Source: Coriobacteriia bacterium (GTDB lineage Bacteria > Actinomycetota > Coriobacteriia > Anaerosomatales > JAAXUF01). From it: 51,199 bases of DNA. Position 1 is the first letter of the stretch. The number at the start of each line of letters is the position of its first letter. The notes beneath the pieces were generated by a model. The model ran no database searches and had not been told where the DNA came from. It was given only the letters and a program-made list of their open reading frames with translations. Location: contig JAAXUF010000011.1 of the NCBI GenBank assembly GCA_013336165.1, positions 1-51,199 of the forward strand, written 5' to 3'. Positions 537 to 6,857 of this stretch are shown in pieces. Both the position numbers and the translations under genes were made by a program.

Positions 537-571
537 GACCTGTCAGAATGGCGTTTCTGACGGGTCTTTTT
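537..571 (+). terminator. Rho-independent terminator after tRNA-Thr
   Basis: A 12-bp stem (GACCTGTCAGAA with TTCTGACGGGTC, one G-U pair) closes a 5-nt loop and is followed by TTTTT at 567-571. It ends the tRNA transcript. It also shows that the long frame open from 548 is not coding at its start, because that stretch is terminator stem. Confidence 0.9.
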
Positions 572-736
572 GATGAGCGCGGCTTTCCGATTGTCGCGGG
601 CGGGCCCTACTTGGAAATAGATTACAGATCGCTCTTGATGCCGCATTTGCGCGGGATTAGGATGGGGTCTAGGGAATATGGTGGTCTTGCGACTCAACGA
701 ATTCGATATACGACAGCGTCGAAAGAGGAGGGCATC

Positions 737-1876
737 GTGCGCGTCAGAGAAGTCTGTGTTCGGCGCAGACGATCGCGGATCACTGCGGTACTAGTGCTGT
801 TTCTTGCCGTCTTCATGCTCGTGCCATCGCTTGCTGGGGCTGCGAGCTTCGTCTCAATTCCATCTGAAGAGGTTCACTACTGGAGCGGCGGCTACTTGTG
901 GGTTGATGGATCGGTAACCAACAATACTGCGTCCCCAATGGGTCCCATCAAGATTTCCTACACCGTGACCTACAATGGGTATGTCATGGCGACGGAGCCA
1001 GATGGCGTAGCATTCGTGTACAACGTTGCACCTGGAGATTCGGCGACATTCAAGTGGATGTTCGATATGCCCGTTATCAGAGGTTTGCCCGTTACGGTCA
1101 CGGTATCGGCTTCAGGAGTGCAACCGTCGGAGTTCACGACGGCTGTCGATCTCACCTTGGTAAGCCAGGTCGAGAAGCCTGTTGTGGATGGCATTCGAAC
1201 CTACACCTGCACATTCAGGAACGATTCCGCCTACACGGTCGAAGAGCCGATGGTGGGCGGCTTGGAGCTGGATGCCGATGACAAAGTGATCGACAGCCTC
1301 TTCGGCGATGGCTCAGACGTCCGGATTGCCCCGGGAGGTGTCTGGAGCGTTGACGTCTATGGCCTCAATCCCGGCGCATCGCCCTATAAGGTAAGCATAT
1401 ATGCGCAGGCAGTGCGTGTGACACCCACGCTGAACTCGGTCTACCGCTTCTTCAACAAGAACAACGGCAGCCACTTCTACACCGCATCTGCCGATGAGCG
1501 CGACTACGTGATCGGGCACTACGGCGTGACTTACACCTACGAAGGTGCCGCCTACACCGTCAACACGTCCAACCCAAACAACAACGCACCGCTCTACCGC
1601 TTCTATAACAAGAACAACGGCAGCCACTTCTACACCGCCTCGGCGATTGAGCGCGACTACGTGATCGGGCACTACGGCGTGACTTACAGCTACGAAGGCC
1701 CTGCTTACAATGTGTGTGCCTCTCCGGCCGCCGGTGCCACTCCGGTCTACCGCTTCTTCAACAAGAACAACGGCAGCCACTTCTACACCGCCTCGGCGAT
1801 TGAGCGCGACTACGTGATCGGGCACTACGGGGTAACCTACAGCTATGAGGGTCCGGCGTTCTGGCTGGGACAGTAG
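737..1876 (+). CDS. Secreted protein: Ig-like/FxLYD-like region plus three DUF5648 repeats
   Basis: The GTG at 737 is chosen because AAAGAGGAGG sits just upstream and a clean signal peptide follows (Arg-rich start, hydrophobic RITAVLVLFLAVFMLVPSLA, then AGA). The frame is open back to 548, but that overlaps a terminator. Product is 379 aa. Residues about 40-235 form two beta-rich segments resembling FxLYD/Ig-like extracellular domains, with no catalytic motif seen. Residues about 235-379 are three copies of a 50-residue repeat (YRF-F/Y-NKNNGSHFYTAS, then ERDYVIGHYGVTY-YEG) that I recognise as DUF5648. The last copy ends the protein with AFWLGQ. Four other genes here carry the same tail. Likely exported and surface-associated; function unknown. 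Confidence 0.85.
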   Translation: MRVREVCVRRRRSRITAVLVLFLAVFMLVPSLAGAASFVSIPSEEVHYWSGGYLWVDGSVTNNTASPMGPIKISYTVTYNGYVMATEPDGVAFVYNVAPGDSATFKWMFDMPVIRGLPVTVTVSASGVQPSEFTTAVDLTLVSQVEKPVVDGIRTYTCTFRNDSAYTVEEPMVGGLELDADDKVIDSLFGDGSDVRIAPGGVWSVDVYGLNPGASPYKVSIYAQAVRVTPTLNSVYRFFNKNNGSHFYTASADERDYVIGHYGVTYTYEGAAYTVNTSNPNNNAPLYRFYNKNNGSHFYTASAIERDYVIGHYGVTYSYEGPAYNVCASPAAGATPVYRFFNKNNGSHFYTASAIERDYVIGHYGVTYSYEGPAFWLGQ

Positions 1877-2465: not shown

Positions 2466-5012
2466 TCAGGGCGCCAGCCAGAATGCCGGACCCTCGTACC
2501 TGTAGACGTTGGGCCAGTTGGCAATGACGGCGTCTCTCTCGGTGTCTGAAGCGGTGTAGAAGTGAGAGCCGTTGGTCACGTTGTAGAAACGATAGACCGG
2601 AGTCGAGTCTGTCACGTTGGTCGCACACACGTTGTATGCGGGTCCATCGTAGGAGTAGATGTCGGGCCACGTGGCTATCACGGTATCTCGCTCGGAGGCC
2701 GAGACGGTGTAGAAGTGAGAACCGTTCTTCTTGTTGTAGAAACGGTAGAGCGGGGCGCTGTTGTCGGGATTGGAGGTGTTGATGGTGTACGCGGCGCCTT
2801 CAAACTTATACACGCTGTAGGTCGCTATCACGGTATCGCGCTCATCGGCAGATGCCGTGTAGAAGTGAGAGCCGTTCTGTAGGTTGTAGAAGCGGTAGAC
2901 AGGTGCAGGAACTGCCGGTGGAGCCGCAATCGTGATCGTTACAGTTGCCACATTGGAGTCATCGATTCTGTCGTTCACCTTGTAGGTGAAGGTGTCCACG
3001 CCCACATACCGGGCAGTCGGTGTGTAGGTGAACGAGCCGTCAGTCGCAAGTGAGAGCGAACCGTGCGCAGTGGTAGTGACGACGTGAGCGGCCAGCAGGT
3101 CTGCATCCGGATCCGTGTCGTTGGCACGCACACCGGAAGCCGCTGAAGCCGTAAGCACCATGTCCCGGCCAACGGTGTAGGTGTCACTTACTGCGACAGG
3201 AGCGTGATTGACGTGACTGGTCGCGACATTCGAGTACTCAGAGTCGCCTGCGCTGTTGTAGGCCCTCACGCGGAAGTACGCCACAGGGGGAGTAGCCGCA
3301 TAGACCAAAGTGAGCATTGGGCGATACGCCGATTCCGTCGCCTCTGACGCCCACAGCCAAGACTCGTCATCCACTACAGGGACGGTGTTTTCGATGTCGG
3401 CCCGGTCGCGCAAGCCGATCCACTTATACGGGCCGGTAGAGGAGAGATACGCCAGACCGGCGAAGTTGAAGTCAAACCGGGTCGGAGTGTCTGCTGTGGG
3501 CAGGTTAATGGCGTCGGTGAGCTTGGCCGTCCCAAGCCCGTCATAGTTGTAGGGGCTCAGGGCGGTCGCGTCGTACTGGTTCGACGCGCAGGCGAAAAAG
3601 TCGTCGTCGCCTGTTGCAGCGCCTTCGCGCGTGAGCGTTAGATATGCCGATTGGAGGGCTTCGCCCACAGGAAGAGCGCCGCAATCGAAGGCGAGATAGC
3701 CGCGGCTGCAGTAATAGGTCCCCGCGAAAAGGCGAGACCCAACCTCGATGTCGCCGGTCGCATACCTCGTGCCCTGTGTGGCGCCTTGGACCCTCGCCCA
3801 GTCCGCACCCGAAGTGGAGACTTGCCCGTCGGTCGCAGCCGCTGTGAAGCTGAGGGTGGTGTTTGAGCTAAGTCCGCTATTCGTGAAGGTGACGGTGTCG
3901 GCACCAACGGTGGCGACCTGCGTCCACGTGACACCATCAGCCGATCGTTCGATCTTGAACCCGTCCTCGTTGTCGGCCGTATCAATCCAAGAGAGGGTGG
4001 CCTGCGATGTGGAGATGATCGATGCAAGTAGATCGCTCGGTGCGGTAGGAGCGGTGGTCGGGGGGGAGGGAAGTTGATAGCTGTCGATCAGCGTGCCATC
4101 GATGCTGTAGAAATCGAAAGTCAGTGTCGCATCGGTGACGGTCACCTTCTGCGCACCCCAGTTTTCGCTATAGCGAACTGTGCTTCCGGAAACGGGAGTG
4201 ACGAAGACGTAGGGGTTGCTGCCGCCGAGACCATTGACGAAGTACACGATGTCATCGCGCATGATTCGCTCGTAGACGTGGGCATGCCCTGATATGACAG
4301 CGTCAGCGCCCCACTCGGCAAACGGCCACTGCATGTAGTCGGTCGAGCCATGGTCCTCATCAGACGAATAAGGTGGGTGGTGGTCGCAGACGATATTCCA
4401 CGTCGAAGTTGAGCGGGCAAGCCGGGCTTTGAGCCACTGCGCTTGCTTCGAAGTGCTGCTGCAGCCATCAGGGTCATCAGGGTTTGAGTCAAGGATGAAG
4501 AAGTGGATGGGTCCCTGTACGAAGTCGTAGTAGCGCTCGTTGCCCGAGGTATTGGTGAAATCAGTGCCGGGCAGAGTGAAGTACTCCAGATACGTCTCAG
4601 GTCCGGCGGGTGTGGGGTCGGAGTAGTCATGGTTGCCCATTGCGGGAAAGAAAGCGTTGATCGATGCAAGTCCCACCGGACAGCGTGTGCCCGTGGTTGT
4701 GATGTCTTTGAGCCAGGCGCCATAGTATGCGCCGACCGACTCGTCGTACTGACCGGTTCCGGTGCCGCCTGCGGGCGCATTGTAGTTGTCGCCGGCGCTG
4801 ATGATGTACGCGGGGTTCCATGACGCCACAAGGTTCGCGACTTGGGCTTCAGACCAGTTGTTCATGCCTTCGTCGCTGATGATGGCGAATGTCGTTTGCG
4901 TTGTGTCCATCGGCTCTGCGCTGCCCGCAATGACCTGGGCATTACCGAGTGAGCCAGACAGGACGATCAACGAGATCGTTGCGACGACAAGGAAAGCGAT
5001 CCTGCGTCGCAT
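2466..5012 (-). CDS. Secreted metallophosphoesterase with FN3, DNRLRE-like, cadherin-like and DUF5648 domains
   Basis: 848 aa. The start ATG (5012) is preceded on the minus strand by AAAGGAG 8 nt away. There is a signal peptide at 1-25 (RRRIAFLVVATISLIVLSGSLGNA). Residues 40-315 are a calcineurin-like phosphoesterase of the purple-acid-phosphatase/alkaline-phosphatase D type. Metal motifs visible are D47-E-G49, GDNY (74-77), GNHD (126-129), HH (211-212) and GHAH (242-245). An FN3 domain starts near 323 but is interrupted at about 387-575 by a beta-rich DNRLRE-like segment and resumes with YFRVRAYNSAGDSEYSN (about 579-595). A cadherin-like (Big_9-type) domain spans 603-695, and three DUF5648 repeats span 703-848. 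Likely an extracellular phosphomonoester/diester hydrolase held at the surface; the substrate is unknown. The tail is nearly identical in DNA to the start of the divergent gene at 5271. Confidence 0.88.
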   Translation of the reverse strand: MRRRIAFLVVATISLIVLSGSLGNAQVIAGSAEPMDTTQTTFAIISDEGMNNWSEAQVANLVASWNPAYIISAGDNYNAPAGGTGTGQYDESVGAYYGAWLKDITTTGTRCPVGLASINAFFPAMGNHDYSDPTPAGPETYLEYFTLPGTDFTNTSGNERYYDFVQGPIHFFILDSNPDDPDGCSSTSKQAQWLKARLARSTSTWNIVCDHHPPYSSDEDHGSTDYMQWPFAEWGADAVISGHAHVYERIMRDDIVYFVNGLGGSNPYVFVTPVSGSTVRYSENWGAQKVTVTDATLTFDFYSIDGTLIDSYQLPSPPTTAPTAPSDLLASIISTSQATLSWIDTADNEDGFKIERSADGVTWTQVATVGADTVTFTNSGLSSNTTLSFTAAATDGQVSTSGADWARVQGATQGTRYATGDIEVGSRLFAGTYYCSRGYLAFDCGALPVGEALQSAYLTLTREGAATGDDDFFACASNQYDATALSPYNYDGLGTAKLTDAINLPTADTPTRFDFNFAGLAYLSSTGPYKWIGLRDRADIENTVPVVDDESWLWASEATESAYRPMLTLVYAATPPVAYFRVRAYNSAGDSEYSNVATSHVNHAPVAVSDTYTVGRDMVLTASAASGVRANDTDPDADLLAAHVVTTTAHGSLSLATDGSFTYTPTARYVGVDTFTYKVNDRIDDSNVATVTITIAAPPAVPAPVYRFYNLQNGSHFYTASADERDTVIATYSVYKFEGAAYTINTSNPDNSAPLYRFYNKKNGSHFYTVSASERDTVIATWPDIYSYDGPAYNVCATNVTDSTPVYRFYNVTNGSHFYTASDTERDAVIANWPNVYRYEGPAFWLAP
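2473..2907 (-). repeat. Left arm of a 435-bp inverted repeat (DUF5648 coding)
   Basis: Read on the minus strand, this matches 5393-5827 with about five or six mismatches by hand alignment and no indels. It encodes all three DUF5648 repeats of the phosphoesterase. The match ends abruptly on both sides (before GCGCC at the gene end and after the TGCACC side), so the identity is limited to the repeat module. Confidence 0.9.
3288..3854 (-). other. DNRLRE-like domain inserted inside an FN3 domain
   Basis: This stretch encodes residues about 387-575 of the phosphoesterase. Upstream the FN3 fold stops at SGLSSNTT; downstream it resumes at AYFRVRAYNSAG, which would directly follow in an ordinary FN3 domain. 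The insert reads like the DNRLRE/CBM96-type beta domains of extracellular proteins (YLAFDCGALPVG, LQSAYLTLTREG, and a final RPMLTLVYA strand). The domain name is a judgement from pattern only. Confidence 0.55.
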
Positions 5013-5270
5013 CTCTGGCTCCTTTCGGGTCTCCGCTCAGTATCGACCGGCTCGTCGGCCGGAACGTTATTGTACCTGCTCGGCCGTGGCGGTGCCCATC
5101 GCACCCCAGATGGCGCGCACCAATTCGCTCGGGGTTCTTCCTATTCACCCCGAACCTCACGTACTATGAGGCATGAACACTAGCTTGGCTTGCGGGTCCG
5201 CTTCGGCTGGCCCCCTTGCAGGTCGGTCCAAGGGGGATCGGGATCTGCAGGCGTAGGAAGGGGAGTTGCA
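5013..5270. promoter_or_regulatory. Divergent intergenic region between phosphoesterase and repeat-protein genes
   Basis: 258 bp between two start codons pointing away from each other, so both promoters should lie here. Candidates seen are a TACAAT -10-like hexamer for the minus gene (complement of 5069-5074) and TACTAT (5162-5167) for the plus gene inside a small dyad CCTCA...TGAGG (5155-5171). No convincing -35 boxes were found. This segment lies inside the invertible interval bounded by the 435-bp repeats. Confidence 0.35.
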
Positions 5271-6857
5271 GTGAGGGAACAATGTGAACCGAGGACACCG
5301 GCGATGCGTTTTGTCGCGATGGCGGTCTTGGCCGTAGCGGTGCTCGGGATTGCGATGGTTGCGTTTCCGGCATCGGCATCGGCAGCGACCCGTGCACCTG
5401 TCTACCGCTTCTACAACCTACAGAACGGCTCTCACTTCTACACGGCATCTGCCGATGAGCGCGATACCGTGATAGCGACCTACAGCGTGTATAAGTTTGA
5501 AGGCGCCGCGTACACCATCAACACCTCCAATCCCGACAACAGCGCCCCGCTCTACCGTTTCTACAACAAGAAGAACGGTTCTCACTTCTACACCGTCTCG
5601 GCCTCCGAGCGCGATACCGTGATAGCCACGTGGCCCGACATCTACTCCTACGATGGACCTGCATACAACGTGTGTGCGACCAACGTGACAGGCTCGACTC
5701 CGGTCTATCGTTTCTACAACGTGACCAACGGCTCCCACTTCTACACGGCTTCAGACACCGAGAGAGACGCCGTCATTGCCAACTGGCCCAACGTCTACAG
5801 GTACGAGGGTCCGGCATTCTGGCTGGCCAACAACACGGTGCCGGTTGCAGCGAATGACGCCTACAATGTCGGCCATGACACGGTGCTCACCGTTTCGGCA
5901 GGCTCTGGGGTACTCGTAAACGACACCGATGCGGATGGAGACACGCTTTCCGCCTACGTTGTCACCACGGCGGCACACGGCACACTCTCGCTTGCGGCTG
6001 CCGGTTCGTTCACCTACACGCCCACTACCGGGTATGTGGGCGCCGACACCTTCACCTACAAGGCGAACGATGGGACGGCTGACTCGAACGTGGTCACCGT
6101 GACGATCACCGTGAGCGGTGTCAATCAGGCTCCGGTGGCTGTCAACGACGCCTACACCGTTGGTCAGGGCACGACACTTACCGTTCCGGCAGTTTCCGGA
6201 GTACTTGCCAACGATACTGACGCAGACGGTAACATCCTGACCGCCGCGGTCGTCTCGGGCCTGACGGATGGGGACGGAACACTCACGCTTGCAGCCGACG
6301 GCTCGTTTACCTATCGGGCACCGGACAACAATTGGGGCCACATCACCTTCACCTATAAGGTGAACGACGGCCTAGCTGAGTCCAATGTGGCGACAGTGAC
6401 GCTTACTGTGACTATCGCACAAGAGACCGTTACGTTTGATGCCAATGGTGGTTCCGGCGCCCCCAGCCCCATCGTGGTCGACTACCATTCCAAGATCGGG
6501 ACTCCGAGTCCCGATCCGACGCGCACAGGCTACACGTTCTCCGGCTGGTACACGGCCGCTACTGGCGGTGTCCAGTTCGACTTCACCAATACCTCGATTG
6601 TCGCGAACATCACTCTGTACGCACATTGGACCGTGAACAGCTACACCATCACGTTCGAAAGCAACGGCGGTTCGGCGGTGGGCGCCATCACCCTAGACTA
6701 TGGCAGTGCGGTCGCTTCTCCGACACCTGATCCGACTAGGGAAGAATATACATTCGCCGGGTGGTACAGCGACGCGGGGCTCACCACGCCGTACACGTTC
6801 TCGACGATGCCCGCCGCGAGCATCACGTTGTACGCCAAGTGGGACATGGATATCTAG
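5271..6857 (+). CDS. Secreted repeat protein: DUF5648 x3, cadherin-like x2, InlB-type B repeats x2
   Basis: GTG 5271 is chosen for the AGGAAGGGGAG just upstream; an internal ATG at 5304 is an alternative. 528 aa. The signal peptide covers about 1-39 (hydrophobic AMAVLAVAVLGIAMVAFPASASA). Three DUF5648 repeats follow at 43-186, so here the module is N-terminal. Next are two cadherin-like/Big_9 domains (about 188-385; VNDTDADGDTL, GSFTYTP-TGYVGADTFTYKAND). The C-terminus has two Listeria-Bacteroides/InlB B repeats (about 388-528; VTFDANGGSG..., GYTFSGWYT, ITLYAHW). No catalytic site or LPXTG-type sorting signal is seen. Likely a surface binding or adhesion protein. Its DUF5648 DNA forms an inverted repeat with the divergent phosphoesterase gene. 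Confidence 0.87.
   Translation: MREQCEPRTPAMRFVAMAVLAVAVLGIAMVAFPASASAATRAPVYRFYNLQNGSHFYTASADERDTVIATYSVYKFEGAAYTINTSNPDNSAPLYRFYNKKNGSHFYTVSASERDTVIATWPDIYSYDGPAYNVCATNVTGSTPVYRFYNVTNGSHFYTASDTERDAVIANWPNVYRYEGPAFWLANNTVPVAANDAYNVGHDTVLTVSAGSGVLVNDTDADGDTLSAYVVTTAAHGTLSLAAAGSFTYTPTTGYVGADTFTYKANDGTADSNVVTVTITVSGVNQAPVAVNDAYTVGQGTTLTVPAVSGVLANDTDADGNILTAAVVSGLTDGDGTLTLAADGSFTYRAPDNNWGHITFTYKVNDGLAESNVATVTLTVTIAQETVTFDANGGSGAPSPIVVDYHSKIGTPSPDPTRTGYTFSGWYTAATGGVQFDFTNTSIVANITLYAHWTVNSYTITFESNGGSAVGAITLDYGSAVASPTPDPTREEYTFAGWYSDAGLTTPYTFSTMPAASITLYAKWDMDI
5393..5827 (+). repeat. Right arm of a 435-bp inverted repeat (DUF5648 coding)
   Basis: Inverted copy of 2473-2907, same length, about 98-99% identical by eye. 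It encodes the three DUF5648 repeats of the 5271 gene, with a single residue difference (Gly for Asp between repeats 2 and 3). The 2,485 bp between the arms hold the phosphoesterase catalytic part, both promoters and the signal peptide of the 5271 gene. Confidence 0.9.

Follow-up and report, generated by a model that had tools for sequence, protein, structure and literature searches.

The Rci shufflons and the Gin/Cin and Hin systems rely on a dedicated recombinase that acts at short specific sites. Inversion at the sap S-layer locus of Campylobacter fetus is said, after Dworkin and Blaser in 1996, to move one promoter among silent genes. At the Spn556II hsdS locus of Streptococcus pneumoniae, inversion across repeats of 298 bp and 85 bp has been demonstrated and gives in-frame chimeras (PMC4948785). 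Regarding the protein module treated here, DUF5648, two reports place it, usually at the C-terminus, on unrelated catalytic or binding heads, in receptor-binding domains of BSAP toxins and in GH25 endolysins (PMC12853789, PMC13379245).

We have analyzed a 51,199-nt stretch of DNA from a Coriobacteriia bacterium of the order Anaerosomatales (contig JAAXUF010000011.1, positions 1 to 51,199; hereafter the window), in which two divergent genes, A and B, carry near-identical DUF5648 modules in inverted orientation (Table 1). Like the hsdS genes of type I restriction systems, this locus has inverted repeats of hundreds of base pairs inside opposed homologous coding regions; unlike there, where inversion is demonstrated and one reaction is carried out by the local PsrA, the A/B locus has neither a local recombinase nor an observed inversion. 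With C. fetus sap it shares an invertible segment between opposed surface-protein genes with a common conserved coding block, but the A and B heads are each preceded by an upstream region of their own, and there is no sign of a silent cassette. As in shufflons and invertase switches, C-terminal tails would be exchanged between expressed heads, although the A/B locus lacks the short specific sites and the dedicated recombinase of the Rci, Gin/Cin and Hin systems. It also differs from the BSAP toxins and GH25 endolysins, for which the available text of the reports describes no near-identical inverted DUF5648 pair (PMC12853789, PMC13379245).

Table 1. Features of the A/B locus and the adjoining gene C, in positions of the window
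Feature	Positions	Strand	Description
Gene C	548..1876	+	442 aa; adjoining secreted protein, C-terminal DUF5648 73% identical to the arms
Gene A	2466..5012	-	848 aa; putative signal peptide, calcineurin-like phosphoesterase (Metallophos), fn3-like, Big_9/cadherin-like, DUF5648, stop
Left arm	2473..2907	-	Complete three-blade DUF5648 module, C-terminus of gene A
Segment that would invert	2908..5392	.	Both divergent heads and shared intergenic region 5013-5303; simulated only
Big_9 of gene A	2932..3200	-	Inside the invertible segment
Gene B	5190..6857	+	555 aa from the listed start, 517 aa from the likely true start at ATG 5304
Right arm	5393..5827	+	Near-identical DUF5648 module directly 3' of the gene B signal peptide
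First Big_9 of gene B	5841..6109	+	Outside the invertible segment

The inverted arms and their genes

The repeat finder returned one outstanding inverted pair, with arms of 435 nt that are 99% complementary and a spacer of 2,485 nt. The initial annotation had described this repeat, and had rightly placed both arms in the same codon phase of the divergent genes; it had put the differences between them at five or six, and while the low divergence holds, a base-by-base comparison gives exactly five (98.9% identity), at coding positions 220, 268, 300, 343 and 355. Four of these are silent third-position changes and the remaining one replaces Asp with Gly. The first 219 coding nt carry no mismatch at all. 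We considered whether the clustering of the five mismatches marks a conversion tract and rejected it, as the 219-bp free run is not significant (P=0.18). With five differences, four of them silent, and no significant clustering, the arms look like the outcome of simple divergence, as they would if gene B had received the module by one duplication and exchange had then stopped.

The flanks of both arms cannot be aligned, so identity ends at the module edges, and the shared stretch is one DUF5648 module running from APVYRFYN to AFWLA. No other DUF5648 module of the genome comes nearer to the arms than 73% identity, a family background that their 99% far exceeds. Between the arms, dS is 0.042 and dN 0.003, which indicates that the copies have been diverging for some time under purifying selection. 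A dS of about 0.04 would argue against very frequent exchange. Of the recent exchange or ongoing conversion first proposed for the arms, a recent common origin stands, while constant exchange would not be expected to leave such a dS.

Gene B encodes, in this order, a putative signal peptide, DUF5648, two Big_9/cadherin-like domains and two Flg_new (Listeria-Bacteroides) repeats. The Big_9 of gene A and the first Big_9 of gene B share 75% DNA identity, and Big_9 domains of this type were found in this genome only in these two genes. In a tree of Big_9 domains, the three from this genome group weakly (93/50), which is not decisive. Such a distribution would fit a former contiguity of the A head and the B tail, that is, the inverted state, and would also fit local duplication. 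A promoter scan gave nothing above chance expectation.

Simulated inversion, module architecture and assembly

When the segment between the arms was inverted in silico, both junction frames stayed open, and the inverted homologous arms enclose a segment whose reading frames are uninterrupted in either orientation. The first product (~1,189 aa) joins the A head, DUF5648 and the B tail; the second (~176 aa) consists of the signal peptide and DUF5648. The in-frame recombinant proteins that the initial annotation had expected upon inverting 2,485 bp were therefore both recovered. Two paralogous modules read in opposite directions give open in-frame fusions automatically, and hence the fusions are no evidence of switching. 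Regarding the machinery, RecA is present in the genome, the nine matches to tyrosine recombinases (PF00589) all lie on contigs other than C11, and no match to serine recombinases (PF00239) was found in the genome. Homology would therefore have to drive any inversion at the locus; a site-specific invertase was rejected, since the contig gave no recombinase match and the genome no serine recombinase match. An identical run of 219 bp amply suffices for pairing by RecA.

One could argue, then, that the locus is a phase-variable switch, in which RecA-type (or other) recombination flips 2908-5392 and the population mixes both head/tail pairings. The near-identical, same-frame inverted arms lying 2.5 kb apart around divergent heads, with both fusions open, speak for it, as do the length of the identical run and the hint of former contiguity in the Big_9 distribution. 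The in-frame hsdS chimeras of S. pneumoniae, formed across the 298-bp and 85-bp repeats, provide a precedent (PMC4948785). Against it stands the architecture of the proteins that carry the module.

The DUF5648 (PF18885) profile scores 128 bits in genes A and B and 122 bits in gene C, for a family cut-off of 25. The predicted model of the module (mean pLDDT 81, pTM 0.70, built on a 5-sequence alignment) has three E-E-H-E (strand-strand-helix-strand) units, matching a three-bladed propeller; a search of solved structures with the module gave no convincing match. DUF5648 is described as a three-bladed propeller with suggested glycan binding (PMC12853789) and is reported in phage GH25 endolysins (PMC13379245). 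Within this order, inspection places it on proteins resembling amidases and M23 peptidases; it also sits on one GH16 protein, and it is most likely an envelope-binding module. Two GH16 glycosidase genes lie on the window contig (20196-21515 and 10807-11607), within an exopolysaccharide-like gene cluster; one of them bears a C-terminal DUF5648 with blades that are internally 94-98% identical, and the other has none.

Among 99 complete DUF5648 proteins from the fetched neighbourhoods, the module is C-terminal in 83 and N-terminal in 6, ten hold little beyond it (one such module-only case being a 50-aa fragment), and none has it internally. The present architectures of A (C-terminal) and B (N-terminal) both have precedents in this census. 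The ~176-aa flip product would fit the module-only class, while the ~1,189-aa product would hold DUF5648 internally, for which there is no precedent (0/99); this counts against a switch. DUF5648 stands at the N-terminus of long secreted proteins in G053 C7 (L164), G061 C6 (L213) and G041 C3 (L203), the first of them multihaem cytochrome-like with many CXXCH motifs. In G036 C11 (L139) and G053 C7 (L197), a signal peptide and DUF5648 are followed by an M23-like peptidase (by inspection), likely an N-terminal binding module on a peptidoglycan hydrolase.

The orientation in which the segment is printed depends on the assembly. The start of C16 and the end of C3 have an overlap of exactly 127 bp, as do the start of C6 and the end of C1, which makes it probable that this genome was assembled from short reads with a de Bruijn graph of k=127. 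Every other identical run between the arms (<=80 bp) is below k, which secures the tails to distinguishing sites; the 219-bp run exceeds k, and therefore the pairing of A and B heads with their tails rests on read pairs and not on contiguous k-mers. At best, the printed orientation shows a majority and no fixed state. The modules might thus be real and the heads and tails mispaired at the shared 219-bp node, the true fixed state being the inverted one. We regard this as very unlikely: although k is exceeded, paired reads usually bridge 219 bp, and the printed pairing yields two architectures with precedent while the alternative includes one without. That the contig was assembled through both arms also weighs against a switch, since a near-equal mixture of orientations would hinder it.

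Several contig ends of this genome (G000) carry repeats. The C16 start (L134:1-429) and the C3 end (L135) have 429 bp in common at 94.6%, of which the first 127 bp are exact, and past this stretch each end has an amidase-like, phage-lysin-like protein with DUF5648 blades; the two ends are possibly two related prophages. At the C6 start (L133:1-127), a repeat of 97-127 bp common to the ends of C1, C6, C15, C16, C17, C19 and C26 breaks the assembly, near a DUF5648 gene on C6.

Near-identical modules in relatives

We searched 98 relatives, a set with no other genome of this genus, and found an orthologous A/B locus in none of them (0/98). The phosphoesterase orthologues in four genomes (G059, G003, G038 and G044) are single-domain proteins that stand alone without DUF5648, and the matches to the gene B tail amount to Big_9 or Flg_new repeats in scattered places. 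When 84,980 species genomes were scanned, relatives of the phosphoesterase and of the module came up, with no A/B locus among the matches listed. No second orientation of the segment was seen in any genome searched.

Near-identical DUF5648 modules do occur elsewhere in the order. In G036, a 434-bp module at C12:81208-81641 (L138) is 99.3% identical to one at C13:29898-30331 (L140), in two otherwise unrelated proteins on different contigs. Their 3 differences all fall within the first 21 coding nt, beyond which the two are identical as far as the stop codon, where the identity ceases; this is likely a recent gene-conversion tract. In G041, the starts of C28, C9, C22 and C23 (L202, L205, L206 and L207) share an exact 132-bp last blade of DUF5648, so that the assembly is left with two heads and two tails unpaired. 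Finally, G053 has a 449-bp DUF5648 pair at 91%. None of these sites can form an inversion switch of the A/B kind. According to these three cases, recent copying or conversion of DUF5648 recurs in the order, and A/B is an instance in which the two copies chance to lie near each other in opposite orientation.

Set against these results, the proposed switching function of the layout is unsupported. Similar module pairs arise elsewhere in layouts that cannot invert, an internal DUF5648 is without example, the dS of the arms would speak against constant exchange, and neither a second orientation nor an orthologous locus was seen; a phase-variable switch is in our view unlikely. Still harder to favor is the reading in which a recombinase-independent inversion swaps C-terminal tails through the shared propeller, toggling a cadherin/InlB-like extension on the phosphoesterase. 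The single duplication into gene B fares better and is a tentative possibility, overlapping with our preferred explanation as a sub-case of it; it is difficult to tell from conversion, and the recurrence in other genera suggests a repeated process.

Origin of the module pair and its significance

We consider it probable that the arms stem from a recent module duplication or homologous conversion between adjacent divergent secreted-protein genes, with inversion as a possible by-product. Duplication or gene conversion would recently have copied or homogenised the module between genes A and B, and the copied tract would stop at the module edges because homology stops there. The same process would recur in the order, as an ordinary shuffling of envelope-binding modules among surface proteins and enzymes. 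As the two copies are close and inverted, crossover of the RecA type could now and then invert 2908-5392 and exchange heads and tails with the frame preserved; such an inversion would be a by-product and no evolved switch, and presumably rare. In the single assembly compared, duplication, conversion and a past inversion would look alike.

If the flip is true, this DUF5648 locus would be the first that is phase-variable, homology-driven inversion would gain a new class of target, and the known inversion systems that make chimeras would extend to a propeller domain and to a lineage of uncultured Actinomycetota. If there is no flip, the locus remains an example of DUF5648 being copied with hardly a change between secreted enzymes and adhesins, one of several recent events of this kind in the order. 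Such copying helps to explain the growth of these surface repertoires, and also the breaks of short-read assemblies at such modules.
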